Part shown: in pieces, positions 31,755 through 46,082 of the stretch
How the letters are laid out: each line of letters opens with the position of its first letter
How positions within the stretch are numbered: the first letter of the stretch is position 1
Source of the DNA: Jannaschia seosinensis
Lineage (GTDB): Bacteria > Pseudomonadota > Alphaproteobacteria > Rhodobacterales > Rhodobacteraceae
Assembly (NCBI RefSeq): GCF_001408515.1
Contig: NZ_CYPR01000207.1
Span: 1 to 53,669, forward strand
Length of the DNA: 53,669 nt
Direction: 5' to 3'
The notes under the pieces: model-generated
Database searches by the model: none
What the model was told of the DNA's origin: nothing
What the model saw: only the letters and a program-made list of their open reading frames with translations
Position numbers and translations under genes: made by a program

Positions 31755-31827
31755 TGCTTGTGGGCGTTGTTCGGGATGGGTTTATGTGCGGGACGACGAG
31801 ACAACTGACGGAATTCGGAGGCCAGGT

Positions 31828-32556
31828 GTGACGAAACTTCGGGGTGCGATCCTGTTGCTCGTGGCATGCGGCCTCGTGGGGGCATTGGCGGCCGGATCGG
31901 TGCCAATGGTCGCCATCACGGCGGGCAGCGTCGCGTTCGGCGCGTCGATGTTGCTCTTCGAGGCGGTGTCGAACATCACCTTCCCGCGCCGTCTGATCGT
32001 CGGTGTCGTGGGTTTCGCGCTTAGCGCGCTGCTTCTGGGCGAGCATTTGCAGTTCTACGAGACGTTCGTTTGGTGGGACCTCGCGCTTCATGCGGTCAGC
32101 GCTTGGATCCTGTCGATCGTCGGGATGGGGCTTGCGCTGTTGCCGACCGCGGGCGGTCCGGCACGATCGCCGGTCTGGATACTCGCGACGCTGGCTTTCA
32201 GCTTTTCCATGACGGTCGGCGCGATCTGGGAGGTCATGGAATTCGGGCTGGATCAGACGATCGGCACGAACACGCAGACGACCGGGCTCGTCGACACGAT
32301 GTGGGACATCGTCGCCAATCTCGCCGGCGCGGTTCTGGGGGCCGTTGTCGGCCATGTCGCCGCGGCCACGGGGCGGCGGGTTCCGTCGGGGGGAGGGCTG
32401 CTTCTGGATTTCGTTGTGGCGAACCGGGTTCTCTATGGGGCCTGGGTGGGGCCGTTAGCGCGCCCGGAGCGCCAGGTCGGCGGCGCGCAGGCCGGATCTG
32501 ACGGCACCTTCAAGGGTCGCGGGCAGGCCGGTCGCGACGTGGTCGCCGGCGAGTAG
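31828..32556 (+). CDS. YjdF/DUF2238-like integral membrane protein
   Basis: About 242 residues from GTG 31828 (CGGAGG upstream), with around six hydrophobic helices. The core WWDLALHAVSAWILSIVG, then GAIWEVMEFGLDQTIGTNTQ and GLVDTMWDIVANLAGAVLGA, resembles the DUF2238 (YjdF) family of unknown function. The last ~34 residues lie over the 3' end of hpnE on the other strand and read as low-complexity, so the original stop may have been lost and the frame extended by about 100 bases. Confidence 0.7.
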   Translation: MTKLRGAILLLVACGLVGALAAGSVPMVAITAGSVAFGASMLLFEAVSNITFPRRLIVGVVGFALSALLLGEHLQFYETFVWWDLALHAVSAWILSIVGMGLALLPTAGGPARSPVWILATLAFSFSMTVGAIWEVMEFGLDQTIGTNTQTTGLVDTMWDIVANLAGAVLGAVVGHVAAATGRRVPSGGGLLLDFVVANRVLYGAWVGPLARPERQVGGAQAGSDGTFKGRGQAGRDVVAGE

Positions 32557-33705
32557 GAGGTTGCGCCACCGCGTGCGGGGCGCGTGGCGAGCGGCGGCGC
32601 CCGCGGGGCTCTGATCGAAGGTCGCGGCACGCTCACGCAGCAGGCGCGCGGGCGGCATCTCCGAGGGTGGCGTTCCGCCATGAGCCGCGATGGATGCGGC
32701 GACGTCGGACCACAGGCGCGCGAGCGCCGCCTCCCGCGGGGCATCGGCCAGCGGCGCGGCCTCCTCTGCCGAGACGGTCACGGAGACCACGTCGCCCCGA
32801 CGGAACAACCAGTGCGCATCGCCCCCGATCAGCGCGAGAAGCGGGGGCAGGGGCGTGTCACCGATGCGGAAATGCGCGTTGAGAATGGCGCGTCCGGGTT
32901 CGGGAAAGCGCGCGCCGGGCAGAAGGCTCGCGGCCTGTCGCGGCGGCAAGGCGAGGATTGCGACATCGCCGGCACCGAGGACGTGTCGATCGCCGCCGAC
33001 CACGAGCGCCCGCAGGCTGTCTCCTCCCTCCAATCCCGAAACAGGAGAGCGCAGGCGGATGTCCACACCGCGACCCGCGAGAAGGTCGAGGGCCGGGTCG
33101 ATCAGCGCGGGGCCCAGCCCGTTCGGGGCAAAAACCGGACGCGCGGCCTTGCTGCCCCGCGCGAAACTGCGCAGCAGGGCGGCACGCAGGAGGGCAGCGC
33201 TGCCGTGCTCCGGGTCCTCGTTCAGAACGGCGCGGGTCATCGGGTCCCAGAAGGTGTGCCAGGCAGGGCCGCGCCGGATGGCCTGTGCGACGGTTCGGGT
33301 TCGGGAGGTGGTCAGCAATCCGGCCAGATCGCGCATCAGAACCGGAGCGGAGACGCCGGGCGGACGGGCCGCGGCGGTGAGGGCGCCGAACGGGCCGCGG
33401 CCGGGGCGGACGGTCCAGCGCTCGCCGCTGGCGAGGTCGAGGAACGGGTACGCCGCCTCGCCGATCTCCAGCGCCTCGCGCCCGCCGATCCGCGTCGCCC
33501 AGTCGAGCACGGCGCGATTTGCCGACAGGACGAGGTGATTGCCGTTATCGATCACCCGGCCCAGCCGGTCGTCGCGATAGGAGCGGCAGCGACCGCCGGC
33601 CTTTGGCGACGCTTCGAACAGGACGACGTCGCGGCCGGATGCGGACAGCCGCTCGGCCGCGACCAGCCCCGCAAGGCCGGCGCCGATGACGTAGGCCCGG
33701 CTCAT
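32455..33705 (-). CDS. hpnE: Hydroxysqualene dehydroxylase HpnE
   Basis: 416-residue FAD-dependent amine-oxidase/CrtI-superfamily protein. The N-terminal dinucleotide site is AYVIGAGLAGLVAAERLSAS, then GGRCRSYRDDRLGRVIDNGNH. The C-terminus holds LLLAGDHVATGLPATLEGAV, the FAD-closing motif. HpnE reduces hydroxysqualene to squalene. It overlaps hpnD by 4 bases in hpnC-hpnD-hpnE. No squalene-hopene cyclase gene is in the window. Confidence 0.88.
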   Translation of the reverse strand: MSRAYVIGAGLAGLVAAERLSASGRDVVLFEASPKAGGRCRSYRDDRLGRVIDNGNHLVLSANRAVLDWATRIGGREALEIGEAAYPFLDLASGERWTVRPGRGPFGALTAAARPPGVSAPVLMRDLAGLLTTSRTRTVAQAIRRGPAWHTFWDPMTRAVLNEDPEHGSAALLRAALLRSFARGSKAARPVFAPNGLGPALIDPALDLLAGRGVDIRLRSPVSGLEGGDSLRALVVGGDRHVLGAGDVAILALPPRQAASLLPGARFPEPGRAILNAHFRIGDTPLPPLLALIGGDAHWLFRRGDVVSVTVSAEEAAPLADAPREAALARLWSDVAASIAAHGGTPPSEMPPARLLRERAATFDQSPAGAAARHAPRTRWRNLLLAGDHVATGLPATLEGAVRSGLRAADLALRAR

Positions 33706-34571
33706 CGTATCGGCCGGGCGACCATGACCATGCCGTCGACGAGCTTGCCCAGCTTGGACCGGCGCGGTGGCGGGCGGGACCAATCCGCCTCCCAGCGCGC
33801 AAGCAGGCGTTCGTAGGGGCCCATCATCATCAGCGCGGGCAGGAGCGGCGTGCGGCGATGGGCCGGGATCTCGACCGCGGCGGCACGAAAGGCGGCGCGG
33901 GCCTCGCGCGCGAAGGCGGCGCGCGCGGCGGGCAGTGCGGGATGCCCCGTCACGCGGGCCGGATCCGCCGGAAGGCCGGTTTCCTCCAGCACATGCGACG
34001 GAAGGTAAAGCCGCCCCATGCGGGCATCCTCCTCGACGTCGCGAAGGATGTTCACTGTCTGCAAGCCACGCGCGAGTTCGAGCGCGAACCGCTCCGACGG
34101 CTTGCCTTGCCACGCGCCGAAGCAGCGCATGGACAGGACGCCGACCGCGCCCGAGACGCAGCGGATATAGGCGGCGAGCTGCTCCGCATTGGGTGCGACG
34201 ATGTTCTCGGCATCCATTCGCATCCCGTCGAGGATCAGGAGGAACTCCGCCTTCGGCAGGTCCAGCCATTTGCGGGCGCGGGCGATTTCCGCGCCGATGG
34301 CCGTCTGCGGGGCGCCGCGATAGACATTGTCGATCTCCGTACGCCAACGCGCAAGCTGCGCCGCGCGCGCCTCGGCGCTTTCGGCACCGGGGGCGTCGCC
34401 GTCGGCGATATCGTCGACCGCCCGGCAGAGCGCGTAGATCGCATGGATCGCGCGGCGGCGCGCGGCGGGCAGGACGCGCATTCCGGCGGCGAAGCTGGAC
34501 CCGGCGGAGGCGACGATGCGCCGCACCTCGATGACGTCGGATGCCTCGTCGGATGCGGCGGCGAAGCTCAT
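33702..34571 (-). CDS. hpnD: Presqualene diphosphate synthase HpnD
   Basis: 289-residue trans-isoprenyl diphosphate synthase (squalene/phytoene synthase family), joining two farnesyl diphosphates into presqualene diphosphate. Both Asp-rich motifs are present: CRAVDDIADGD and ILRDVEEDARMGRLYLP. The N-terminus has GSSFAAGMRVLPAARR in the FPP-binding region. Overlaps hpnC and hpnE by 4 bases each. Confidence 0.9.
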   Translation of the reverse strand: MSFAAASDEASDVIEVRRIVASAGSSFAAGMRVLPAARRRAIHAIYALCRAVDDIADGDAPGAESAEARAAQLARWRTEIDNVYRGAPQTAIGAEIARARKWLDLPKAEFLLILDGMRMDAENIVAPNAEQLAAYIRCVSGAVGVLSMRCFGAWQGKPSERFALELARGLQTVNILRDVEEDARMGRLYLPSHVLEETGLPADPARVTGHPALPAARAAFAREARAAFRAAAVEIPAHRRTPLLPALMMMGPYERLLARWEADWSRPPPRRSKLGKLVDGMVMVARPIR

Positions 34572-35464
34572 CGTGCGGCCCACAATCCGGCCAGCCCGGC
34601 ACGAAGGAAATCGGTGCGGGAGGGCGCGATGCGGTCTGCGAGCGGATCGCCCGCCCGAAGCCGCCGCGACAGACGATTGGCGAGCGCCAGCGTCGCCGTC
34701 GCCTGCCCCCGCAATCCGCGCGCGGCGATGCGGCCGGGCAGGGGTGCGGCGCGCGACAGCAATTCGTCGCAGGCATCGAGCGTCCGGTCTACGACCTGCC
34801 GGAGTCCGGGCGTCAGGGCATCGCGCGTCAGATCGTCGTCGGAGGCCCCGGCCCCCGCCATCCATTCACCCGGTAAGTAGCGCCGCCCGAGATCGCGCCG
34901 GTCGGCGGCGATATCCTGCAGGTGGTTGAGGACCTGAAGCGCGTCGCAGAGCGCGTCGGAGGGGGCGTGGGTGTCGGCCGCCTCCTCGTGGATGGCCAGC
35001 AGGAAGCGCCCCACCGGCCGGGCAGAGAAGGTGCAGTAGGTTTGCAGATCGTCCCAATCGGCACAGGCGATTCCACCGGCATCCCGCCGGAACGCCACCA
35101 GCAGATCGCGCGAAGCGGCGAGTGCGGCGGCATCAGCCGGCGCGGATCCGTCGGCCAATGCGCGGCGCAATGTCGCGCCCGGGTTCGCCGCGGTGCCTTC
35201 GAGAAGGCCGCGTTCGAGGTCCGCAAGGCGTTCAAGGCGTTGCTCCGGTGTCTTCCACGGGTCGTCGGCGGCGTCATCGGCGGCGCGGGCATAGTTATAG
35301 AAGGCCACGACGCGACCGCGCAGGCGCTTCGGGATAAGGCGCGATGCGACCGGGAAGTTTTCGCCCCGCGCGGCATCGACGAGGCGGGCGGCGGGGTTCC
35401 GCGCAGCTGCGGCCGATCGCATCACCCGAGCCCTACCGTCTTTCGTCGCCTCGACAATTGCCAT
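34568..35464 (-). CDS. hpnC: Hydroxysqualene synthase HpnC
   Basis: 298-residue member of the same family as HpnD. It converts presqualene diphosphate to hydroxysqualene. Motifs: the ENFPVASRLIPKRLRGRV start, YARAADDAADDP (first Asp motif) and LQDIAADRRDLGRRYLPGEW (second). ATG 35464 lies 8 bases after GAGGA; ATG 35479 is less likely. First gene of hpnCDE, divergent from DUF2141-crtN across 72 bases, so both arms of the cluster may share regulation. Confidence 0.9.
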   Translation of the reverse strand: MAIVEATKDGRARVMRSAAAARNPAARLVDAARGENFPVASRLIPKRLRGRVVAFYNYARAADDAADDPWKTPEQRLERLADLERGLLEGTAANPGATLRRALADGSAPADAAALAASRDLLVAFRRDAGGIACADWDDLQTYCTFSARPVGRFLLAIHEEAADTHAPSDALCDALQVLNHLQDIAADRRDLGRRYLPGEWMAGAGASDDDLTRDALTPGLRQVVDRTLDACDELLSRAAPLPGRIAARGLRGQATATLALANRLSRRLRAGDPLADRIAPSRTDFLRAGLAGLWAAR

Positions 35465-35536
35465 TTGTGGTGTCCTCATAGGTGACAAGCCCGGCGCAGG
35501 AGCTAGCTCGCCGTCATGGCCATCAAAGAGGATAGC

Positions 35537-35950
35537 ATGGGTTTTCGCAAATGGTTGGTGCCGGCAGCGGCCTTGTTGCTTGCGACGCCGGCCTTCGGTG
35601 GGGACGTGCGGGTCGAGATCGCGAACCTCAGGTCGGGGGACGGTATGGTGCGCGTGGCGATCTGTCCGCGCGAGACGTTCACGCAGCCGTCCTGCCCGTA
35701 TGTCGGCGCCGCACCGGCGAGCCGGGGCGCGGTGGTTATTGAAGACGTGCCCGATGGCGTTTACGCGGTGCAGGCTTTTCACGACGAGAACGGCAATGGC
35801 GATCTCGACCGCCGCCGGTTTCGTCCGGCGGAAGGACTGGGATTTTCGCGGGACGCACGGATGTGGATGGGACCGCCGCGTTTTTCGGATGCGGCGATAC
35901 GCGTGACGGGTGACGGAATGCTGACTTTGACGATGAGGTACTACCAATGA
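35537..35950 (+). CDS. DUF2141 secreted protein in carotenoid cluster
   Basis: 137 residues. A signal peptide (KWLVPAAALLLATPAFGG) exports it to the periplasm. The mature DUF2141 domain contains two cysteines (VAICPRE and QPSCPYVG) that may form a disulfide, and GVYAVQAFHDENGNGDLDRR, an Asp/Asn-rich loop. DUF2141 proteins often sit beside carotenoid genes, but no role is established. The ATG follows AGAGGATAGC. Its stop overlaps the crtN start by 4 bases, so it is in the same transcript. Confidence 0.82.
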   Translation: MGFRKWLVPAAALLLATPAFGGDVRVEIANLRSGDGMVRVAICPRETFTQPSCPYVGAAPASRGAVVIEDVPDGVYAVQAFHDENGNGDLDRRRFRPAEGLGFSRDARMWMGPPRFSDAAIRVTGDGMLTLTMRYYQ

Positions 35951-37497
35951 ACGCCATCACGGGTGGGACGGCGCGACATGCCGTCGTGATCGGCGCGGGG
36001 CCGGGCGGCCTGGCCACGGCGATGCTGCTGCGAGCCTCGGGAGCCAGGGTGACGGTTCTGGAGCAGTCGGACCGCGTCGGCGGGCGCACCGCCGGGTTCA
36101 CGCAGGACGGCTTTACCTTCGATTACGGGCCGACCTTCTATCTCTATCCGCAGGTGCTGCGCGACATCTTCGCAACCTGCGGCTACGACCTCGACGCCGA
36201 GGTGGACCTGAAGCGGCTCGACCCGATGTACCGGCTGCAATTCGACGACGGCAATACGTTCGACGCCACCGCCGACGTGGAGCGGCTCAAGGCCGAGGTG
36301 GCGCGGATTTCGCCCGAGGATGTCCCCAAGGTCGAGCACTACCTCAACGAGAACCTCGCCAAGTTCGACCGGTTCGTTCCCATCCTGCAGCGTCCGTTCC
36401 TCGGCCTGTCGGATCTGATGCGGACGGACATGCTGCGCGCCCTGCCGAAGCTGCGGCCATGGTCGACGGTGGATGCGGATCTCAAGCGGTGGTTCAAGCA
36501 TCCTGATCTGCGCCTCGCCTTCAGCTTCCAGTCGAAATACCTCGGCATGTCTCCGTTCAAGTGCCCGTCTCTGTTTACGATTCTGGCGCATGTGGAATAT
36601 GGCTACGGCGTGTTTCACCCGATCGGCGGCTGTAACGCGATCCCGCGCGCGATGGCGCGGGTGGCGACCGAGATGGGCGTCGATATCCGCCTGTCCGAGC
36701 CCGCTGAGGAGATCGTGTTCGAAGGCCGCAAGGCGCGCGCCGTCCGCACCCCGCGCGAGACACTCGCGGCGGATGCGGTGGTGGTGAACGGGGACTTCTC
36801 CTCGACCGTTCCGAAGCTCATCCCGAACCGGCTGCGCCGGCGGTGGACGGATGCCCGGATCGACCGCAAGAAGTTCTCCTGCTCGACCTTCATGCTCTAT
36901 CTCGGCATCGAAGGCCGGTACGACGACATGCAGCATCACACGATCTTTTTGTCGGATGATTACCTCGAGAACATCCGCGAAATCGACGCGGGCCTCGCGC
37001 CGGAGAAGCCGACGATCTACGTGCAGAACGCCTCTGTCACCGATCCGACCCTCGCGCCCGAAGGTCATTCGACGCTTTATGTCCTGGTGCCGACGGGGAA
37101 CCTTGAGGGCGGGGTGGATTGGGAGACGCTTGCGCCGATCTACCGCGAGAAGGTCCTCGACCGGCTTTCGCGCCTGTCGGGACATGACATCCGGCCGCGC
37201 ATCCGGACGGAGCGGATGATCACGCCCGCCGACTGGAAGGCACAGATGGGCATCTTCCGCGGCGCGACGTTCAATCTGGCGCATAATCTGGGTCAGATGC
37301 TGCATTTCCGGCCGCGGAACCGGTTCGAGGACGTGGACGGCGTCTATCTGACCGGCGGCGGCACCCACCCGGGCAGCGGCTTGCCCACCATCTTCGAGAG
37401 CGCACGGATCGCGTCGCGGCTTGCGGCCAACGATATCGGTCTGGAATATCCCGAAACGGGCGCGACGCCCGCAACCTACAAGGAGGCGGCGGAATGA
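35947..37497 (+). CDS. crtN: CrtN-like squalene/dehydrosqualene desaturase
   Basis: 516-residue FAD-dependent carotenoid desaturase. N-terminal site AVVIGAGPGGLATAMLLRAS; C-terminal GGGTHPGSGLPTIFESARIA. It follows the remembered Staphylococcus CrtN along its length: DGFTFDYGPTFYLYPQVL, FQSKYLGMSPFKCPSLFTIL, FSCSTFMLYLGIEG, IFLSDDYLENIREI and LAPEGHSTLYVLVPT. This favours desaturation of a C30 substrate over C40 phytoene. Overlaps crtP by 4 bases. The exact number of desaturation steps cannot be read. Confidence 0.82.
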   Translation: MNAITGGTARHAVVIGAGPGGLATAMLLRASGARVTVLEQSDRVGGRTAGFTQDGFTFDYGPTFYLYPQVLRDIFATCGYDLDAEVDLKRLDPMYRLQFDDGNTFDATADVERLKAEVARISPEDVPKVEHYLNENLAKFDRFVPILQRPFLGLSDLMRTDMLRALPKLRPWSTVDADLKRWFKHPDLRLAFSFQSKYLGMSPFKCPSLFTILAHVEYGYGVFHPIGGCNAIPRAMARVATEMGVDIRLSEPAEEIVFEGRKARAVRTPRETLAADAVVVNGDFSSTVPKLIPNRLRRRWTDARIDRKKFSCSTFMLYLGIEGRYDDMQHHTIFLSDDYLENIREIDAGLAPEKPTIYVQNASVTDPTLAPEGHSTLYVLVPTGNLEGGVDWETLAPIYREKVLDRLSRLSGHDIRPRIRTERMITPADWKAQMGIFRGATFNLAHNLGQMLHFRPRNRFEDVDGVYLTGGGTHPGSGLPTIFESARIASRLAANDIGLEYPETGATPATYKEAAE

Positions 37498-39002
37498 GCA
37501 GCGTCGGCATCATCGGAAGCGGCCTCGGCGGCCTCGCGGCGGCGGCGACACTGGCGGCCCGCGGCCACAAGGTCACGGTTCTGGAGAAGAACGACTGGCT
37601 CGGCGGCAAGGCGGCCGAGTTGAACGAGGAGGGGTTCCGCTTCGACATGGGGCCCACGATCCTGACCATGCCGCGCGTGCTGGAGCGTGTGTTCTCCGAA
37701 GCCGGGCGCGATATGGCCGACTATCTCGACCTGCGCCGTCTCGACCCGCAATGGCGATGTTTCTACGACGACGGCACGGTTCTGGACCTGAAGGGCGACA
37801 AGGGCGCAGCGGCCAGGGCCATCGGCGCGCTGTCGCCCGAAGACGCCGCGGGGTTCGAGCGTTTCATGGCGGTGGCCAACCGGCTGTCGGATGTGTCGGA
37901 CAGGTTCTTCTTCTGGCGCTCGGTCGAGGATCTGCGCGACACGATGAACCTCAAGCAGAACATGAGCCTTGCGACGCTGTCGGATGTTATGGCGCTGCGG
38001 ATGCATCGCACCGTGGCCGGTCAGATCAAGAAGGACATCCGCGACCCGCGCGTCGTGCAGATGCTGGAGCATTTCATCCAGTATGTCGGCTCTTCGCCGC
38101 TGGCCTCTCCGGCAGTGCTGTGCGGGATCGCGCAGATGCAGATGGGCGAGGGGGTCTGGTATCCGATCGGCGGCACCCGCGCCGTGCCGACCGCCCTGAC
38201 CCGTCTGGGCGAGGAGCTGGGCGTCGATTACCGGACCGGCGTCGATGTATCCTCCATCGAGGTCGAGAATGGGCGTGCCATGGCGGTGATCGCCGACGGC
38301 GAGCGCATGGTGTTCGACAAGGTCGTCTCCAACATGGATTCGGTGCGCACCTACAGAGAGTTGATCGGCGGCAAGGCCTGGCGCGATTTCGGTCATGCCA
38401 AGCGGGAGGCGGCCTGTTCGGGCGTGGTGCTGTATCTCGGGCTCGACCGGGCTTACGATCATCTTGCCCATCACAACTTCGTCTTCTCGCGCGACCCGAA
38501 GGAGGAGTTCCGCGCGATCTACGACGAGGGCCGGCCCGCACCCGATCCGACCGCCTATATCGCCGCGCCCGCGCGGACCGAAGCGGGTGTCGCGCCCGAG
38601 GGAGGCGAGGCGCTTTACGTCCTCGTCCACACGCCGCATCTGCGGCCGGGGCACGATTGGTCGAAGATGCTGCCGGAATACCGGCGGACGATCCTCGACA
38701 AGTTGGGCCGTGCCGCCGGGATGGGCGATATCGAGGAGCGGATCGTGTTCGAGCGGACACTCACGCCACAGGATATTCACGACCGTTACAAGGTCCTCGA
38801 CGGGGCGATCTACGGGTTGGTCAGTCATGGCCGCATGAACGGGGCGTTCAAGCCCGGCAACCGTTCGCGGCAGGTGCGGGACCTCTATCTCGCCGGTGGC
38901 AGTGCGCATCCGGGGCCGGGCATGCCGATGGCGCTGATGTCGGGTTGGATCGCCGCAGACAGCCTGCACCAGGACGCCACGTCGAACGTTGCCGCCGAGT
39001 AG
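37494..39002 (+). CDS. crtP: CrtP-like diapocarotenoid oxygenase
   Basis: 502-residue CrtN paralogue. N-terminal GIIGSGLGGLAAAATLAARG. Stretches matching remembered Staphylococcus CrtP (4,4'-diaponeurosporene oxidase) include FDMGPTILTMPRVLERVFSE, MLEHFIQYVGSSPLASPAVL, GVWYPIGG, HLAHHNFVFSRDPKEEF and KVLDGAIYGLVSHGRMNG. It would oxidise a terminal methyl of a C30 carotene to an aldehyde. Followed by the acyltransferase and, two genes on, an aldehyde dehydrogenase that could take the aldehyde to the acid. Confidence 0.8.
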   Translation: MSSVGIIGSGLGGLAAAATLAARGHKVTVLEKNDWLGGKAAELNEEGFRFDMGPTILTMPRVLERVFSEAGRDMADYLDLRRLDPQWRCFYDDGTVLDLKGDKGAAARAIGALSPEDAAGFERFMAVANRLSDVSDRFFFWRSVEDLRDTMNLKQNMSLATLSDVMALRMHRTVAGQIKKDIRDPRVVQMLEHFIQYVGSSPLASPAVLCGIAQMQMGEGVWYPIGGTRAVPTALTRLGEELGVDYRTGVDVSSIEVENGRAMAVIADGERMVFDKVVSNMDSVRTYRELIGGKAWRDFGHAKREAACSGVVLYLGLDRAYDHLAHHNFVFSRDPKEEFRAIYDEGRPAPDPTAYIAAPARTEAGVAPEGGEALYVLVHTPHLRPGHDWSKMLPEYRRTILDKLGRAAGMGDIEERIVFERTLTPQDIHDRYKVLDGAIYGLVSHGRMNGAFKPGNRSRQVRDLYLAGGSAHPGPGMPMALMSGWIAADSLHQDATSNVAAE

Positions 39003-39813
39003 CGCGGTGCCACAGGGGGACATTGCGGACGATCCGGTCGCGCTGCGCTCGGACCGGATGTGCCGCTTCTTTACGGGCGTCATGCGGCGCCAGATGATGC
39101 GCGGGTTCCGCGCGGTGCGCCTCCTTAAACCCGGCCTGCCGGATCTGCCTGAGGACGCGCCGGTGGTGGTTTACTCCAACCATCCCGGCTGGTGGGATCC
39201 GGTCTTCTACATCGTGTTGCAGCGGACATTTTTCGCTGACCGCGAGGGCTACGGCCCGATGGAGGCGGAGGCTCTGGAGCGTTACGGCTTCATGAAGCGG
39301 ATCGGGATCTTCGGCGTCGATGCGGAGACGAGGGCAGGGGCCGCACGGTTCCTCCGGGTCGGGACGCACATTCTGTCCGATCCGAAGCGGATGGTCTGGA
39401 TGACCGCACAAGGTCGGTTCGCCGATCCCCGCGCGCGTCCCGTCGCGATGCGGCCCGGGCTCTCGCACCTCATGGCGCGCCTGGAGGGAGCGGTCGCCTT
39501 GCCGCTGGCCATGGAATATCCGTTCTGGTCCGAAAAGCGCCCCGAGGCGCTGGCCGCTTTCGGCACACCCGTCCGGATCGGCGGGAATGCGAAGGCGTGG
39601 CAGGCCGCGCTCGAGGACGCGCTGACCGAAACGCAGGACCGGCTTGCCGCCGCCGCCATCGCGCGCGACCCCGCCGCATTTTACCGCGTCATCGGCGGAA
39701 GGAGTGGTGTCGGCGGCATCTACGGCATGTGGTCGCGGGGGCGTGCATGGATTGGCGGACACCGCTATCAATCCGACCACTTGTCCGACGACACGACCGA
39801 TACGACCAACTGA
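38989..39813 (+). CDS. PlsC-type acyltransferase, likely carotenoid O-acyltransferase
   Basis: 274 residues from TTG 38989, overlapping crtP by 14 bases; GTG 39007 or ATG 39058 are alternatives. The lysophospholipid acyltransferase catalytic motif NHxxxxD is seen as SNHPGWWDPVFY, and the second block as MTAQGRFADPRARPVAMRPG, in place of the usual EGTRS. In this cluster it probably acylates the sugar of a glycosyl carotenoate, the role played by CrtO in staphyloxanthin synthesis. No clear sequence identity to staphylococcal CrtO was seen. Confidence 0.75.
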   Translation: MPPSSAVPQGDIADDPVALRSDRMCRFFTGVMRRQMMRGFRAVRLLKPGLPDLPEDAPVVVYSNHPGWWDPVFYIVLQRTFFADREGYGPMEAEALERYGFMKRIGIFGVDAETRAGAARFLRVGTHILSDPKRMVWMTAQGRFADPRARPVAMRPGLSHLMARLEGAVALPLAMEYPFWSEKRPEALAAFGTPVRIGGNAKAWQAALEDALTETQDRLAAAAIARDPAAFYRVIGGRSGVGGIYGMWSRGRAWIGGHRYQSDHLSDDTTDTTN

Positions 39814-39832
39814 TCGCACGACGAGGTTCACG

Positions 39833-40960
39833 ATGCTGCTTTACCTGTCCGCTGCCTGCCTCGCCCTTGGGGGGCTCTATGCGGTGGTCACGTTTGTCAA
39901 TCTGGTCGTCTTTCGCGCGCCGCCGCGTGTGAATGGCGGGCAGGGCGCGCGCGTCTCGATCCTGATCCCGGCCCGGGACGAAGCTTCGAATATCGCGGCT
40001 GCGCTCGATTGCGTTCTTGCGCAGCAGGACGTGGAGATGGAAGTCGTCGTGCTCGACGACGGGTCGACCGACGGGACGGACGAGATTGTGGCCGCGCGGG
40101 CCGCCAGCGATCCTCGGGTGCGGTTGATCCGGGGCAAACCGCTGCCGGCCGGTTGGAACGGCAAACAGCATGCCTGTCACCAGCTTGCGAATGAGGCGCG
40201 ACATCCATCCTTGCTGTTCCTTGATGCCGATGTCCGGCTCGCACCCGACGCGGCGGCGCGCATGCAGGTGTATATGAGCATCCGCGACCTGTCGCTCGTG
40301 TCGGGCTTCCCGCGACAGATCACGCGGACGCTGTCGGAGATGATCGTGATTCCGCAAATCCTGGTGCTGCTTCTCGGATATCTGCCGTTCCCGATGGCGC
40401 GGCTGTCGAACGAGCCGGGGCTTGCCGCGGGGTGCGGGCAGTTGATGATGGTCGATGCCGCGGCTTACCGCGTCGCCGGGGGCCATGAGGCCTTCCGCAA
40501 CAGGATGCACGACGGTCTGAACCTGCCGCGCAATGTGCGCCGGACGGGGGGGAGAACCGATATCCTAGACGCCACGCCGCTCGCCTCCTGCCGGATGTAC
40601 GACAATTGGCCGGACATCTGGACGGGCTTCAGCAAGAACGCGACAGAGGGGATGGCGAAGCCTGTCGCACTGCCGGTCTGGACGGTCCTTCTGTTCGGTG
40701 GGCATATCCTGCCGCCGGTTGTTGCGCTTGTCGCGCTGCTTTTGGGGGCACCGGATGCGGCGCGCGCGGCGCTTTGGGCCACAGGGCTCGTCTTCCTCGC
40801 GCGGACGCTGCTTGCGGTGAAGGTCCGGCAGCATCCGCTGTCGGTCATTCTCCATCCCGTCGGGGTCGCCGTCACACTTTGGATCCAGTGGGCCGCTCTG
40901 ATCGGTGCAAGGAAGGGGCAGCGCGCCGAATGGCGTGGCCGCACCTATGACGTCAATTGA
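39833..40960 (+). CDS. Family 2 glycosyltransferase, CrtQ-like
   Basis: 375 residues, the same length as Staphylococcus CrtQ. N-terminal membrane segment (4-26), GT-A domain with VSILIPARDEASNIAAAL, VVLDDGSTDGT and the DxD-type LFLDADVRL, then several C-terminal hydrophobic segments. CrtQ-like traits include PLPAGWNGKQHACHQL and the final AEWRGRTYDVN. It would attach a sugar to the carotenoid carboxylate. Start ATG 39833 follows CGAGGTTCACG. The aldehyde dehydrogenase TTG overlaps its stop. Confidence 0.82.
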   Translation: MLLYLSAACLALGGLYAVVTFVNLVVFRAPPRVNGGQGARVSILIPARDEASNIAAALDCVLAQQDVEMEVVVLDDGSTDGTDEIVAARAASDPRVRLIRGKPLPAGWNGKQHACHQLANEARHPSLLFLDADVRLAPDAAARMQVYMSIRDLSLVSGFPRQITRTLSEMIVIPQILVLLLGYLPFPMARLSNEPGLAAGCGQLMMVDAAAYRVAGGHEAFRNRMHDGLNLPRNVRRTGGRTDILDATPLASCRMYDNWPDIWTGFSKNATEGMAKPVALPVWTVLLFGGHILPPVVALVALLLGAPDAARAALWATGLVFLARTLLAVKVRQHPLSVILHPVGVAVTLWIQWAALIGARKGQRAEWRGRTYDVN

Positions 40961-42318
40961 GCGGCGTAGAAGACGTTCGCGCCGCGTATGAGCGTCTGTC
41001 GGAGGCGTTTTCGCTGGATGCCGTTCCCTCGGTGGTGGCGCGGATCGACCGCCTTAAGGCGTTGTCGCGGGCGATCGGGGAGAAACAGGAGGAGCTGGTC
41101 GCGGCGGTTTCCGCGGACTTCAACCCGCGCGCGGAGGCGGAGACGCTAACCGCCGAACTCGCGTTCACGCAGGAGACGATCCGGCACACGATCCGCAACT
41201 TGCCGAAATGGGCGCGGCCGCGGCGGAAGCGTGTTCTGCGTCCGGTGCCTGGACGGACGGAAGTCTGGGTTGAGCCCAAGGGCGTCGTCGGGGTTCTCTC
41301 GCCGTGGAACTATCCGTTGCAACTGGCGCTGGTGCCGCTGATCGCGGCCGTCGCGGCGGGAAACCGCGTCCTGCTGAAACCGTCGGAGCGGTCGCCGCAC
41401 AGCGCCGAAGCGCTCGTCAACCTCATCGGCGGCGTGTTTCCCGGTGACGAGGTGGCTGTCCTGACCGGCGGGCCTGACGTTGCCGAGGCGGTGACGCGTT
41501 TGGCGCTTGGGCATCTCTTCTTCACGGGATCGACGGCGACCGGCCGACGCGTGGCCCTTGCGGCGGCGGAGACTCTGACGCCTGTGACGCTGGAGCTCGG
41601 CGGCCGTTCGCCTGCGGTTGCGCTGCCGGGTGCGTCGCCGAAGCATCACGCGCGCATGATCGCGTGGGGCGCGTGGCTCAACGCCGGTCAGACTTGTGTC
41701 GCGCCGAACCATCTTTGGGTGAAAAAAGGGACGGAAGACGCTTGGGCGGATGCGCTTCTATCTCATGCGAAGGGATTCTTCCCGAATGACTACAGTGGCA
41801 TGATAGATAGCCGTGCGTCCGACCGAATGACCGCGATGCTCGATGAGGCAACCGCTCGCACTCGCGTCTTGCCCGCCAAGGCAGATGTCGCACACGCGCC
41901 AAGGGTGGTAATCGATCCGCCGCCGGGAAGCGTGCTTCTTGAGGAGGAGATTTTCGCGCCGATCCTGCCGATCCTGACATATGGCGACCCGAGCGAGGTC
42001 ATCGCGGCGGAGCGCGGACGGTCGCCGCTGGCAGCCTATGTTTTCGATCGCGACAGCGCCGCAGCCTTGGCATTTCTGAAGCGCTTCCGGTCAGGTGGCG
42101 GAATGGTCAACGGAACCGTTCTGCACCTCGCGGCACACGATCTGCCGTTCGGTGGCATCGGAGAAAGCGGGTACGGCGCGTATCACGGGCAGCGAGGTTT
42201 CAGAGAGTTCAGCCACGAACGCGCGATATTCACGCCGTCACAGGGGCCGTGGCTCAAGATGCTGGCACCGCCATACGCTGCGACAGCACGGAAGATATTT
42301 CGACTTATGGCGCGCTGA
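40957..42318 (+). CDS. Aldehyde dehydrogenase, likely for C30 carotenoid aldehyde
   Basis: 453-residue NAD(P)+-dependent aldehyde dehydrogenase of the class 3/coniferyl aldehyde type. Catalytic Cys247 is in NAGQTCVAPNH, general base Glu213 in TLELGG, and the cofactor site includes FFTGSTATGRR. It starts at TTG 40957, overlapping the glycosyltransferase stop (TTGA). A hydrophobic, basic C-terminus (YAATARKIFRLMAR) resembles membrane-attached class 3 enzymes. In context it should oxidise the CrtP product aldehyde to the carboxylic acid. Confidence 0.85.
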   Translation: MSGVEDVRAAYERLSEAFSLDAVPSVVARIDRLKALSRAIGEKQEELVAAVSADFNPRAEAETLTAELAFTQETIRHTIRNLPKWARPRRKRVLRPVPGRTEVWVEPKGVVGVLSPWNYPLQLALVPLIAAVAAGNRVLLKPSERSPHSAEALVNLIGGVFPGDEVAVLTGGPDVAEAVTRLALGHLFFTGSTATGRRVALAAAETLTPVTLELGGRSPAVALPGASPKHHARMIAWGAWLNAGQTCVAPNHLWVKKGTEDAWADALLSHAKGFFPNDYSGMIDSRASDRMTAMLDEATARTRVLPAKADVAHAPRVVIDPPPGSVLLEEEIFAPILPILTYGDPSEVIAAERGRSPLAAYVFDRDSAAALAFLKRFRSGGGMVNGTVLHLAAHDLPFGGIGESGYGAYHGQRGFREFSHERAIFTPSQGPWLKMLAPPYAATARKIFRLMAR

Positions 42319-42377
42319 AGCACGACCAGAGCGATCTATAAATTACATAATTCCAATTATCACGCTTTTGGATTCGA

Positions 42378-43067
42378 TCATCCGAGTGCGTAGCCCGCAC
42401 CCCGCACCGTGCGAATTGGGTCCGCCGTACCGGTGGCGCCGCGTAATGCTTTACGAAGCCGTCCGACATGGACATCAACCGTTCGGCTGTCGACATAGAT
42501 GTCGCGTCCCCAGACCCGGTCGAGAAGTTGGTCGCGCGACCATACACGGCCCGGCCGCTCCATGAATGTTGTCAGCAGTCGGAATTCCGTCGGACCGAGA
42601 TGCAGTTCGTTTCCCGCGCGAAACACGCGATGTTGGGCCGTGTCTACGGCGACGTCATCGTATTCCAGCCGCTCGCCGACGCTGGACGGACGCACACGAC
42701 GAAGCTGCGTTCGAATGCGCGCCATGAGTTCGACCACGGAATAAGGCTTGACGATGTAGTCGTCGGCCCCTGTTTCCAAGCCGCGCACGCGGTCGACTTC
42801 CTCGGACCGGGCCGAGATCATGATGACCGGAATTCCGCGCGTTTCCGACGCGGTCTTCAGGCGACGGCAAACCTCGATCCCGGACACCTCGGGCAGCATC
42901 CAGTCGAGGAGGATGAGGTCAGGATGATCCTCGCGCACCAGCGACATGGCCGCGTCGCCGCTATCGGCCTGGAGGACACCGTAGCCCTCGGCCTCCAGGT
43001 TGTAGACCAGAACCTCTCGCTGCGGAGCTTCGTCTTCTACAACGAGAACAGAGGGTTGCACGGACAT
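42378..43067 (-). CDS. phoB: Phosphate regulon response regulator PhoB
   Basis: 229 residues: receiver domain with acidic pocket VVEDE and phospho-acceptor Asp55 (LILLDWMLPEVSG), Lys in DDYIVKPYS, and an OmpR-type winged helix ending with DVHVGRLRKALR and TVRGAGYAL. It activates genes bearing Pho boxes at low phosphate. It starts one base after phoU and is the last gene of pstB-phoU-phoB; the convergent aldehyde dehydrogenase ends 59 bases away across a short AT-rich stretch. Confidence 0.95.
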   Translation of the reverse strand: MSVQPSVLVVEDEAPQREVLVYNLEAEGYGVLQADSGDAAMSLVREDHPDLILLDWMLPEVSGIEVCRRLKTASETRGIPVIMISARSEEVDRVRGLETGADDYIVKPYSVVELMARIRTQLRRVRPSSVGERLEYDDVAVDTAQHRVFRAGNELHLGPTEFRLLTTFMERPGRVWSRDQLLDRVWGRDIYVDSRTVDVHVGRLRKALRGATGTADPIRTVRGAGYALG

Positions 43068-43068
43068 C

Positions 43069-43788
43069 TTAAGATACCACTCCGCCTCTGGCCGTGCTCG
43101 TGTAATCCGCCTTCTTACGGTCCTCGTCGGGCATCTCGCCGGTCACGAGATAGATCACCTGCTCCGAGATGCCGGTCACGAGATCGCCCATCCGTTCGAT
43201 GTTCTTTGCCATGAAATGCAGGTGCATGCAGGCGGTTATGTTGCGCGGGTCTTCCATCATGTGGGTCAGGAACTCGCGGAAGAGCGCGTTGTACATCTGG
43301 TCCACTTCGGCGTCCCGCGCACGGACATCGAGCGCAAGATCCGCATCCCGCTGGATATAGGCGTCGAGTACGTCCTTCAGCATGATCTGAACCGCGCGCG
43401 ACATTCGCTTAAGCGACAGCGTGGCGCCCTCGATCGGACTGAGATCGTAAATGATTTCCGTGCGTTTCGCGATGTTCTTCGCGTAATCTCCAACGCGCTC
43501 CAGCGCCGCCGCGATGCGGAAGATGGTCAGGACGGTACGCAGATCTGTGGCGATTGGTTGCCGCAGGGCGATGACGCGGGCAGCCTCCTCGTTCACCTTC
43601 TCTTCGAGAGCGTCAATTTCCTTATCCGCCAGCCGCGTCGACGCCGCGAGTTCAGTATCTCCTTCGGTCAGGGCCTCTGTGGCGTTTTCGATGGCCTCTT
43701 CGACCATTCCGCCCATTTTCATGATCATCGCCTGAATGGCTTCGAGGTCGCGGTCGAAGGCGCTTGCGATATGCGTGCTGTTGATCAT
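43069..43788 (-). CDS. phoU: Phosphate signalling protein PhoU
   Basis: 239 residues with the two PhoU helical repeats. Typical are IASAFDRDLEAIQAMIMKMG, the metal-binding ALERVGDYAKNIAKR, and the repeat FMAKNIERMGDLVTGIS. PhoU transmits the state of the Pst transporter to PhoR and limits phosphate uptake. The start ATG 43788 follows AGGAGGGGACAG. With the permease genes missing here, what PhoU senses locally is unclear. Confidence 0.94.
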   Translation of the reverse strand: MINSTHIASAFDRDLEAIQAMIMKMGGMVEEAIENATEALTEGDTELAASTRLADKEIDALEEKVNEEAARVIALRQPIATDLRTVLTIFRIAAALERVGDYAKNIAKRTEIIYDLSPIEGATLSLKRMSRAVQIMLKDVLDAYIQRDADLALDVRARDAEVDQMYNALFREFLTHMMEDPRNITACMHLHFMAKNIERMGDLVTGISEQVIYLVTGEMPDEDRKKADYTSTARGGVVS

Positions 43789-43799
43789 CTGTCCCCTCC

Positions 43800-44597
43800 T
43801 CAGCCGATCCGGCCGGAGATATAGCTTTCGGTGCGCGGGTCCTCGGGCGATGTGAAGATCTTGCCCGTCTCGCCATATTCCACGAGATTTCCGAGGTGGA
43901 AGAAGGCCGTCTTCTGGCTCACACGTGCGGCCTGCTGCATCGAGTGGGTGACGATCACGACGGAGTAGTTCTGGCGCAGATCGTCGATCAGTTCCTCCAC
44001 TTGGGCGGTGGCGATCGGGTCGAGCGCGGAGCAAGGCTCGTCCATCAGGAGAACCTCCGGCGAAGTGGCGACGGCGCGTGCGATGCAAAGACGCTGCTGC
44101 TGACCGCCGGACAATCCGGTCCCCGGCGATTGCAGCCGATCCTTCGCCTCCTCCCACAAAGCAGCGCGGCGCAGGGCGTTCTCCACGATGCCGTCGAGGT
44201 CCGCCTTGTCCTGCGCAAGCCCGTGAATCTTCGGCCCGTAGGCCACGTTGTCGTAGATCGATTTCGGGAACGGATTGGGCTTCTGGAACACCATGCCGAC
44301 CTTTGCGCGAAGCTGCACCGGATCGACACGGCGATCGTAGATGTCTTGCCCGTCGATCAGGATGTCCCCCTCGACCCGCGCAATCGGAATCGAGTCGTTC
44401 ATCCGATTGATGCAGCGCAAAAACGTGGATTTGCCGCAGCCCGAGGGCCCGATGAAGGCCGTGACGGTCTTGTCCAAGATGTCGACGTCAACATCCTTGA
44501 TGGCGTGCGTATCGGCATAATAGACCTGTACGCCGCGCGCCGTGATCTTGGTCGTCTGGCTTTCCACCGCTCTCTCCGTCAGTCTCATATCATTCAT
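43800..44597 (-). CDS. pstB: Phosphate ABC transporter ATP-binding protein PstB
   Basis: 265-residue ATPase. Walker A is [19 protein letters not shown], signature LSGGQQQR, Walker [13 protein letters not shown], followed by [12 protein letters not shown]. All motifs are intact, so the protein should work if PstC and PstA exist elsewhere. Start ATG 44597 follows GGAGGGTGGGGCC. Upstream, in place of pstA-pstC-pstS, there is only a short scrambled segment with a pstA-like tail. Confidence 0.94.
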
Positions 44598-44610
44598 GGC
44601 CCCACCCTCC

Positions 44611-44676
44611 TTACCAGCGGCGTTCGATCAGGCGGCGCAGAAGTTGCACCGCACGATGCGTCACAAGCAGGAACAT
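44611..44676 (-). pseudogene. 3' stub of phosphate permease gene pstA
   Basis: Just before the pstB ribosome site, a minus-strand frame ends [13 protein letters not shown] then TAA. The stretch before it (FLLVTHR) is hydrophobic. This resembles the last residues of a PstA-type permease, whose stop normally sits directly upstream of pstB. A stop codon (TGA) lies just upstream of 44676, so only about 21 codons remain. The match is short and rests heavily on position. Confidence 0.5.
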
Positions 44677-44969
44677 TCATGGGACGATAACCGCCCCGGA
44701 GGCCTGCGATACAAAAACAGGGTCGGCCCTCGGCGTCCAGTCGATCACGACCCTATGCCGCCATGCGCGAGGTGGCGGACGGCGGATTTTGCTCGCATCG
44801 GGTTCGGGGAATTGTGACGTACTGCGACTATAGAATGATCGAGCGCTTCCGCGAAGAAGCCGCCTCGTAAGGAAGCGGTGGTCGGGGCGATACCTGTATT
44901 GAAGGCCAACGATCACTCCTAGTCCATGAACAAGCTTGGCCGGATGCGCCTTGGCCCCGGTTTAAGCGC
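44677..44969. other. Scar where pstS-pstC-pstA are expected
   Basis: About 290 bases between the pst-type promoter and the pstA stub hold no recognisable gene. A minus-strand frame (44916 down to 44677) begins with GTG after TAGGAG but its product (Arg-rich, no membrane segments, no signal peptide) does not resemble PstS. No IS repeat was seen, so the loss looks like a simple or already healed deletion. Confidence 0.55.
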
Positions 44970-44991
44970 TGAATAGGGATTCCGTGTTGGT

Positions 44992-45024
44992 GTTCTGTGA
45001 CAGTTTGGTAACCGTTTTGTAACA
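44992..45024 (-). promoter_or_regulatory. Three tandem Pho-box units (PhoB site)
   Basis: On the minus strand three exactly adjacent 11-base units read TGTTACAAAAC (45024-45014), GGTTACCAAAC (45013-45003) and TGTCACAGAAC (45002-44992). This is the TGTcACanAAC pattern and 11-bp spacing of PhoB sites. About 16 bases downstream is TATTCA (44975-44970), a fair -10 element. The direction is toward pstB-phoU-phoB. It is where the pstS promoter lies in intact pst loci. Confidence 0.8.
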
Positions 45025-45041
45025 CTCACGGAGACCTCACG

Positions 45042-46082
45042 TCAGGCATTCACCTCCGCAGGCAGCGTGACGGTGACCGTCGTCCCTTTACCCAATTCGC
45101 TGGTGATCTGCAGGCGTCCGCGATGGCGATTGATAATGTGTTTGACGATTGCGAGGCCAAGCCCGGTGCCGCCCTGCTCACGCGAGCGGCCGGTATCGAC
45201 GCGGTAGAACCGCTCCGTCAGGCGCGGAATATGCTCTGGCGGAATGCCGGCGCCGCGATCGGTGACCGCAATGCGCCAGGCCGGACCCCGGATGACCGGC
45301 TCGCGCGTCACGCGACGGAGCGTGACGGTAACGATGCCGGGACGCGCGCCGTATTTCACCGCATTCTCGACCAGATTCGTGACGACCTGCGTGAGTTGAT
45401 CGCGATCTCCCGGCGCCATTGCCGTGGGCGGGCTGTCGAACTCGATATCCACATCGTTATCCGCCGCGCCGGGCTCCAAAGCGGCGATCAGGTCGGTGAT
45501 CAGCTCCGCCAGGTCGACCCGCCCCGTCGGGCGCCGCCGCGACTGGCCTTCCAATCGGCTCAGCGACAAAAGGTCGGAGACGAGCCTGTTCATCCGGCTC
45601 AACTCCTGCGCCATGAGGGCCAGAAAACGGTCGCGGCCTTTCGGATCCTCCCGCGCTGGACCCTGAAGCGTCTCCACGAACCCCATGACAGCGGTAAGGG
45701 GCGTCTTGAGCTCATGGCTGACATTGGCGACAAAATCGCGCCGCATCGTCGGCGCGGCATTCAGTTCCGACACGTCGCGGAAAACCAGCAGGACGTGGCG
45801 CTGCCTCTCCCCCTCTGCACGGATCGGTGAGACGCGGACGGAGTAGAGCGTGTCGACCTCGCCCGAGGACTGGGTGAAGCGCGCGGTGCCTTCCGTTCCG
45901 TGGGCGTATGCATCCTCCACCGGCGCCAGAAGAGCCGGCTGCCGCAGGACACTGATGTAGGAACGCCCCATCATCCACACCCCGAGCCGATCCCGCGCCG
46001 CGGTATTCGCCATCGCCACCCGCCCCGCAGGATCGAGCAGCAAGGCAGGCTCCAGCAACGCGTCCAGAATCCCGGGAATCAT
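45042..46082 (-). CDS. phoR: Phosphate regulon sensor kinase PhoR
   Basis: 346 residues: PAS domain (about 8-105), HisKA with VSHELKTPLTAVMGF (His123) and HATPase with NLVENAVKYGA, DRGAGIPPEHIPRLTERFYR and GTGLGLAIVKHI. No transmembrane segment is visible, unlike E. coli PhoR, which has a membrane anchor. The Pho-box promoter begins 18 bases after its stop, and phoB is in the same locus, which supports PhoR over other kinases. Confidence 0.87.
   Translation of the reverse strand: MIPGILDALLEPALLLDPAGRVAMANTAARDRLGVWMMGRSYISVLRQPALLAPVEDAYAHGTEGTARFTQSSGEVDTLYSVRVSPIRAEGERQRHVLLVFRDVSELNAAPTMRRDFVANVSHELKTPLTAVMGFVETLQGPAREDPKGRDRFLALMAQELSRMNRLVSDLLSLSRLEGQSRRRPTGRVDLAELITDLIAALEPGAADNDVDIEFDSPPTAMAPGDRDQLTQVVTNLVENAVKYGARPGIVTVTLRRVTREPVIRGPAWRIAVTDRGAGIPPEHIPRLTERFYRVDTGRSREQGGTGLGLAIVKHIINRHRGRLQITSELGKGTTVTVTLPAEVNA

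Follow-up and report, generated by a model that had tools for sequence, protein, structure and literature searches.

What does a divergent cluster of squalene and carotenoid genes produce in a member of the Rhodobacterales, an order in which C40 carotenoids are the norm? The question is raised by a locus of Jannaschia seosinensis that lies within a stretch of 53,669 nucleotides from contig NZ_CYPR01000207.1 (hereafter the window, meaning the whole stretch). A sequence-only reading of this DNA had proposed a staphyloxanthin-like C30 carotenoid cluster that enters through squalene, and its core has held up: the genes are best read as a C30 pathway that is fed by squalene and includes glycosylation and acylation, a view supported by the desaturase tree and by the lack of a squalene-hopene cyclase (SHC) gene, shc. 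We consider it very probable that the locus is a self-contained unit for a C30 carotenoid that derives from squalene and carries an acylated sugar.

What the analysis establishes directly is the gene content, the enzyme families, the genomic absences in the draft and the orthology to genes that have been tested genetically. Nine reading frames are intact at the locus (Table 1), three on the minus strand (hpnCDE) and six on the plus strand. As had been read from the letters, hpnC-hpnD-hpnE diverges from DUF2141-crtN-crtP-acyltransferase-glycosyltransferase-aldehyde dehydrogenase over exactly 72 bases, a distance that rests on an hpnC start at 35464 and a DUF2141 start at 35537, both placed downstream of ribosome-binding-site-like letters. 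The genes are as tightly coupled as proposed, with overlaps of four bases at hpnC-hpnD and hpnD-hpnE (starts 35464, 34571 and 33705), at DUF2141-crtN, at crtN-crtP and between the glycosyltransferase and aldehyde dehydrogenase genes, an overlap of 14 bases between crtP and the acyltransferase gene and, as the sole gap on the plus strand, 19 bases between the acyltransferase and glycosyltransferase genes. A scan of 32000-42600 found no sigma-70 consensus promoter.

HpnD and HpnC belong to the SQS_PSY family (PF00494; E 3e-50 and 3.9e-41) and carry paired DxxxD motifs, and both desaturases are assigned to the CrtI family, with 532 and 423 bits against a cut-off of 238. The acyltransferase stays below the PF01553 cut-off (18.5 bits against 23, E 0.0019) and is 55% identical to an Azospirillum brasilense Sp7 gene annotated as lysophospholipid acyltransferase; at the site that we take to be the third conserved acyltransferase motif it reads AQGRF instead of the AEGAF of the Azospirillum enzyme. 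The aldehyde dehydrogenase has class 3 and fatty aldehyde dehydrogenases as relatives in the PDB and contains ELGG and GQTC stretches, presumably the catalytic signatures. Every step class of the staphyloxanthin pathway of Staphylococcus aureus, i.e. desaturase, terminal oxygenase, aldehyde dehydrogenase, glycosyltransferase and acyltransferase, is therefore matched by family models or homology. Pathway descriptions nevertheless set the two systems apart, as the window enters via squalene (HpnCDE) and not via the dehydrosqualene synthase CrtM, and its acyltransferase is PlsC-like. Squalene itself is said to have been described as a C30 precursor in Planctomycetes and others by Santana-Molina et al. 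in 2022. "Staphyloxanthin-like" fits the enzyme classes, whereas the closer model product is the ester of a dicarboxylic acid, the diapolycopenedioic acid of Methylorubrum.

This product, 4-[2-O-11Z-octadecenoyl-glucopyranosyl]-4,4'-diapolycopenedioic acid, is made by M. extorquens AM1, whose glycosyltransferase and acyltransferase have been proven by deletion and complementation (PMC10448405; papers with PMC numbers are cited here from parts of their text). AM1 and the window have in common the squalene supply by HpnCDE, CrtN, CrtP, a glycosyltransferase and a lysophospholipid-type acyltransferase. In AM1, however, the genes are spread over separate loci, hpnCDE is clustered with shc and the aldehyde dehydrogenase was not found, two AldH candidates having proved dispensable (PMC10448405), whereas in the window all genes including that for an aldehyde dehydrogenase lie together in a single divergent locus and SHC was not detected in the genome. 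For the AM1 type, sequences were compared by means of the M. rhodesianum and M. salsuginis loci; the M. salsuginis counterparts of the acyltransferase and glycosyltransferase are 46 and 47% identical to the window proteins, and two related Methylorubrum loci (L072, L075) also have a DUF2141 gene near crtN.

Mutants of A. brasilense Sp7 that were deleted for crtNPOQ lost their pigment and accumulated squalene, and those deleted for hpnCDE were likewise without pigment (PMC13274349). The corresponding Sp7 stretch (L181, in which AMK58_25215 is crtP) runs aldehyde dehydrogenase, crtN, crtP, acyltransferase, glycosyltransferase, DUF2141, so that the order crtN-crtP-acyltransferase-glycosyltransferase is common to both, along with aldehyde dehydrogenase and DUF2141 genes. 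Identities to the window proteins are 57% for CrtN, 66% for CrtP, 55% for the acyltransferase, 57% for the glycosyltransferase, 34% for the aldehyde dehydrogenase and 50% for DUF2141. Sp7 differs in having hpnCDE at a separate locus (PMC13274349) and its aldehyde dehydrogenase, distant in sequence, on the opposite strand. By this orthology, the function assigned to the locus is well supported. The same comparison lowers the novelty that had been claimed: an acyl-glycosyl, squalene-fed C30 pathway is already described (AM1, PMC10448405; Sp7 genes, PMC13274349), so the earlier estimate was too high, and the locus adds the occurrence in Rhodobacterales to a known pathway. Among the papers listed on C30 carotenoids together with the Rhodobacterales or several of their genera, such as Jannaschia and Palleronia, we saw no C30 pathway described for this order, although the survey of Santana-Molina et al. 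2022 (PNAS) may include such genomes. The alphaproteobacterial C30 pigment pathway, described only recently, is thereby extended to an order whose C40 pigments and aerobic phototrophy have been the subject of study.

The phylogeny of the desaturases was built from 84 desaturase-type proteins (LG+G4, quick search, Shimodaira-Hasegawa-like approximate likelihood ratio test (SH-aLRT) supports, rows thinned beforehand), including Sp7 and with M. rhodesianum and M. salsuginis representing AM1. The window CrtN falls into a CrtN clade of 30 rows (support 100) with Methylorubrum, Microvirga, Azospirillum, Acetobacteraceae, Acidobacteriota and a metagenome-assembled genome of the Verrucomicrobiales, and the window CrtP into a matching clade of 33 rows (support 100), which is joined by a Cytobacillus protein (98, flagged as a long branch). 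C40-type rows labelled CrtI or CrtD form groups separate from these clades, where the label CrtI stands for proteins of the genus whose gene neighbours one for a strong SQS_PSY protein and the label CrtD, for a second family member, was inferred. The CrtI group neighbours CrtN (89), and the deep joins of the tree carry long-branch warnings. As both window desaturases are placed outside the C40 clades, the objection that they might belong there failed.

The draft genome of the host contains three SQS_PSY proteins: HpnD, HpnC and a weak match (74 bits). The weak type, which we take to be NDUFAF6-like, has a single representative in every one of the 24 genomes tested, also in G001, which has no other SQS_PSY protein. 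Neither CrtM nor a strong phytoene synthase (CrtB) is among the SQS_PSY proteins of the draft, PF13243 (SHC) gave 0 matches across it and reaction-centre genes (PF00124) were not detected in it, so that the lack of CrtM and SHC reported for the window holds for the draft as well. Since neither shc nor a strong phytoene synthase was detected, squalene would be expected to serve the pigment only, and no C40 carotenoid would be expected.

We infer substrates, step order, product and a role as protective membrane pigment as follows. HpnD and HpnC would convert two farnesyl diphosphates via presqualene diphosphate to hydroxysqualene, which HpnE would reduce to squalene. CrtN would then desaturate squalene to a polyene of the 4,4'-diapolycopene type, and CrtP would oxidize terminal methyl groups to aldehydes, which the aldehyde dehydrogenase may turn into one or more carboxylic acids. 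Finally, the GT2 enzyme would add a sugar as an ester and the PlsC-like acyltransferase would acylate this sugar. With all genes in one place and squalene apparently reserved for the pigment, the nine-gene version offers a practical unit for reconstruction, and its clustered aldehyde dehydrogenase is a candidate for the step missing in M. extorquens AM1.

To see how widespread the cassette is, CrtP was searched at E 1e-90 or better in samples of the order and class, and at identities of at least 83% in the genus. It is present in 6 of 292 order-sample genomes, 8 of 385 class-sample genomes and 8 of 20 genus genomes (including the host). Among the 80 named loci listed, out of 588, an acyltransferase homologue (E 1e-4 or better) occurs in 79, a glycosyltransferase in 78, crtN in 71, DUF2141 in 45, hpnE in 25 and an aldehyde dehydrogenase, whatever its kind, in 33; many of these loci have short flanks, and where flanks were sufficiently long DUF2141 is found in 39 of 60. 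In the order, 23 distinct loci were compared (Palleronia, Jannaschia, Tropicimonas, Rubellimicrobium, Limimaricola, Roseitranquillus and others), no two of them sharing 97% identity or more over 3 kb. All 23 have hpnCDE divergently beside the cassette (21 by blast, two plasmid loci by annotation), 19 have an aldehyde dehydrogenase gene nearby and 11 a linked DUF2141 gene. The plasmid loci are those of Palleronia sp. LCG004 (411 kb, L180) and Limimaricola variabilis (294 kb, L184), the latter having genes for replication and ParB within a few kb.

Two other explanations of the locus lack their key enzyme in the draft, given that neither shc nor a strong phytoene synthase was detected. If the crt genes used a C40 substrate, as usual in Rhodobacterales, and hpnCDE were incidental, this would agree with the membership of both desaturases in the broad CrtI family and with the C40-type genes of most other genomes of the genus. 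However, the host is devoid of the phytoene-synthase-class match of about 215-245 bits that 11 of the 12 C30-negative genus genomes possess, and its desaturases group with CrtN and with CrtP instead of with the CrtI and CrtD rows of the genus, which renders this explanation very improbable. We give hardly any credence to the proposal that hpnCDE supplies squalene for hopanoids while the crt genes form a separate unit. The trio is named after hopanoid clusters, SHC is present in 6 of 7 tested C30-cassette genomes outside the order, and the genus genome G018 combines SHC with the C30 cluster; yet SHC was detected neither in the host draft nor in 23 of 24 Rhodobacterales genomes tested, and a survey gives shc for less than 1% of Rhodobacterales, with Jannaschia among the genera without it (PMC12583986). 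In G018 (L188, C6:224000-236000), the SHC has beside it an isolated HpnD-like protein with 48% identity to the HpnD of the window, and this stretch holds no homologues of hpnC or hpnE. According to the same survey, Microvirga massiliensis, A. brasilense and Skermanella aerolata possess the hopanoid genes, yet degradation products were not detected for them (PMC12583986). Loci of A. brasilense and S. aerolata (L103, L105, L102) and of Microvirga were found to carry the C30 cassette, and squalene in Azospirillum, Skermanella and Microvirga may be routed to pigment, a coincidence being possible.

A further alternative accepts a C30 carotenoid but with a product other than the acyl-glycosyl form, for instance a free diacid, a methyl ester, another sugar or a sulfated compound. 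We judge it unlikely, albeit deserving serious attention. The C30 product of M. extorquens PA1 reportedly differs from that of AM1 despite the genes (PMC10448405), the aldehyde dehydrogenase varies in strand, identity and presence among loci, as its four gaps in 23 Rhodobacterales loci illustrate, and the Palleronia plasmid cluster includes a sulfotransferase gene. Against this stand the acyltransferase and glycosyltransferase genes, near-universal in the listed loci, which makes both steps look integral. The sulfotransferase gene of Palleronia sp. LCG004 is located between those for the glycosyltransferase and aldehyde dehydrogenase (L180:12352-13461) and suggests a sulfated variant of the pigment.

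Several observations count against a self-contained unit for an acylated glycosyl C30 carotenoid. HpnD and HpnC have TIGR03465 and TIGR03464 as their best matches, yet stay slightly under the curated cut-offs. The role of the aldehyde dehydrogenase is the least sure, because the enzyme shares only 34% identity with the one encoded by aldH of Sp7 and two AldH candidates of AM1 were not needed. The host genome is a fragmented draft (3.83 Mb, 253 contigs, 98.66% complete), so that absences from it are not absolute. Besides, the host encodes one further CrtI-family protein of 458 amino acids on contig C102 (L012:4866-6242), with 228 bits against the cut-off of 238; it is placed within the CrtI group on a long branch, and no strong phytoene synthase that could supply it was detected in the draft.

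Within the genus, paired SQS_PSY genes lie beside crtN-crtP in all eight C30 genomes. The 12 C30-negative genomes have the weak SQS_PSY protein and one strong match (two in G010, none in G001), which, going by the neighbouring CrtI genes, is probably CrtB. Three genomes (G005, G013, G018) unite the C30 cluster with a strong SQS_PSY protein of CrtB type and reaction-centre genes, five (G000, G007, G008, G011, G017) have the C30 cluster and neither of these, 11 are of C40 type only and G001 has neither system. Therefore, genomes with C40-type and phototrophy genes, C30-only genomes and mixed ones occur in a single genus, whose closely related members lend themselves to studying how one pigment system takes the place of another. 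An association of the C30 cluster with the lack of reaction-centre genes (5/8 against 1/12, Fisher p 0.018) was dropped, as a three-gene tree yields only three independent supported pairs, too few for a sign test to become significant.

Most original among the leads is a pair of unstudied proteins that accompany the pathway, namely DUF2141 and the product of the membrane-protein gene at 31786-32556, a gene outside the span delimited by the sequence-only reading; both are candidates for unrecognised pathway components. DUF2141 genes anywhere in the genome accompany CrtP in 7 of 8 genus genomes (0 of 12 without CrtP), 4 of 6 in the order sample (14 of 286) and 8 of 8 in the class sample (106 of 377), with one-sided Fisher values of 1.0e-4, 1.4e-4 and 4.9e-5 that ignore kinship and come from samples sharing some genomes. 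Without the host genome the CrtP-positive counts are 6 of 7, 3 of 5 and 7 of 7 (p 2.6e-4, 1.6e-3 and 1.7e-4, kinship again ignored). Among independent genus pairs, DUF2141 goes with C30 in three of three in most pairings and in two of three in the rest, too few for a test. Part of the association occurs without linkage: in G011, G017 and G316 the DUF2141 gene is detached from the cluster and still 51-56% identical to that of the window, and in three of the eight class-sample positives (G339, G349, G649) it lies on another contig or far from crtP. In six unlinked DUF2141 regions blast with the nine cluster proteins matched DUF2141 alone, and among the neighbours of two such genes (L189, L191) no carotenoid gene was seen.

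A dedicated role of DUF2141 is opposed by several findings. The distant copies of G339 and G649 share only 32 and 35% identity with the window protein and may thus be unrelated paralogues, so that part of the class-sample match may be background; the gene is missing from three C30-bearing Rhodobacterales genomes (G008, G253, G267); it is not exclusive to C30 systems, considering the CrtP-negative class genomes that have it; and it adjoins crtG in C40 Sphingomonadales (PMC5989583, PMC9241875). Among the few papers that a full-text search returned for DUF2141, we found no mention of it with C30 clusters, and the main text of the Sp7 paper has no word starting with "DUF" (PMC13274349).

Judged by eye from a signal-peptide-like start, the DUF2141 protein is probably secreted. 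Two cysteines are nearly invariant in its alignment, which also has a D-x-N-G-N-G-x-L-D stretch, presumably of the calcium-loop type. The structure model (predicted local distance difference test (pLDDT) 90.8) has a beta-strand fold for which no solved structure was found at E 0.001 or better, and a sequence-profile search gave nothing beyond chance; with a carboxypeptidase-regulatory-like domain as best match in a viral library (E 8.8e-4), the modelled fold may loosely be termed a transthyretin/Ig-like beta-sandwich, which implies no function.

In 16 of the 23 loci from Rhodobacterales, a homologue of the 31786-32556 gene flanks the cluster, either next to hpnE or beyond the aldehyde dehydrogenase gene, and the variable position together with the kept linkage argues against simply shared flanks. 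Such homologues were not found in the other loci compared (L012-L214, frames of at least 100 residues). Less favourable for a link to the pathway are the seven loci without a homologue nearby and the occurrence of the family in unrelated settings without carotenoid genes (Priestia, Sphingopyxis plasmids). The product is predicted to be a multi-helix membrane protein, weakly akin to DUF2238: it has no Pfam match at E 0.001, DUF2238 appears at best with E 0.09 in two of ten family members, and the model (pLDDT 80.0) found no fold match. As a tentative idea, which we think rather doubtful, DUF2141 could be a dedicated secreted component of the C30 system that, with the DUF2238-like membrane protein, handles the finished glycolipid-like pigment outside the cytoplasm by binding, placing or exporting it. 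If true, the known pathway would have an unrecognised module acting after synthesis.

Table 1. Features of the C30 carotenoid locus in window coordinates (the NCBIfam name of model TIGR03464 is squalene synthase HpnC)
Feature	Position	Strand	Remarks
DUF2238-like membrane protein gene	31786..32556	+	3' end convergent with and overlapping hpnE; GTG start unsure
hpnE, hydroxysqualene dehydroxylase	32455..33705	-	TIGR03467 302.7 bits, cut-off 283.05 (passes)
hpnD, presqualene diphosphate synthase	33702..34571	-	TIGR03465 236.2 bits, cut-off 278.6; PF00494; DDIAD and DVEED motifs
hpnC, hydroxysqualene synthase of the trio	34568..35464	-	TIGR03464 224.1 bits, cut-off 250.45; PF00494
Divergent intergenic region, 72 bases	35465..35536	.	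presumably contains both promoters
DUF2141 protein gene	35537..35950	+	PF09912 E 4.8e-23
crtN-type desaturase gene	35947..37497	+	TIGR02734 531.9 bits, cut-off 238
crtP-type terminal methyl oxygenase gene (putative role)	37494..39002	+	TIGR02734 422.8 bits, cut-off 238
PlsC-like acyltransferase gene	38989..39813	+	TTG start; PF01553 sub-threshold; HPGWWD box
GT2 glycosyltransferase gene, CrtQ-like	39833..40960	+	PF00535 E 8.2e-20
Aldehyde dehydrogenase gene	40957..42318	+	TTG start; PF00171 E 2.4e-67

Beyond the end of the cluster, positions 42378-46082 are read as a phosphate-regulation block with a response regulator, PhoU-like and PstB-like proteins and a sensor kinase. The flanks of related clusters gave no more than weak ABC-ATPase matches (28-33%), and thus the genomic site of the cluster differs among relatives.

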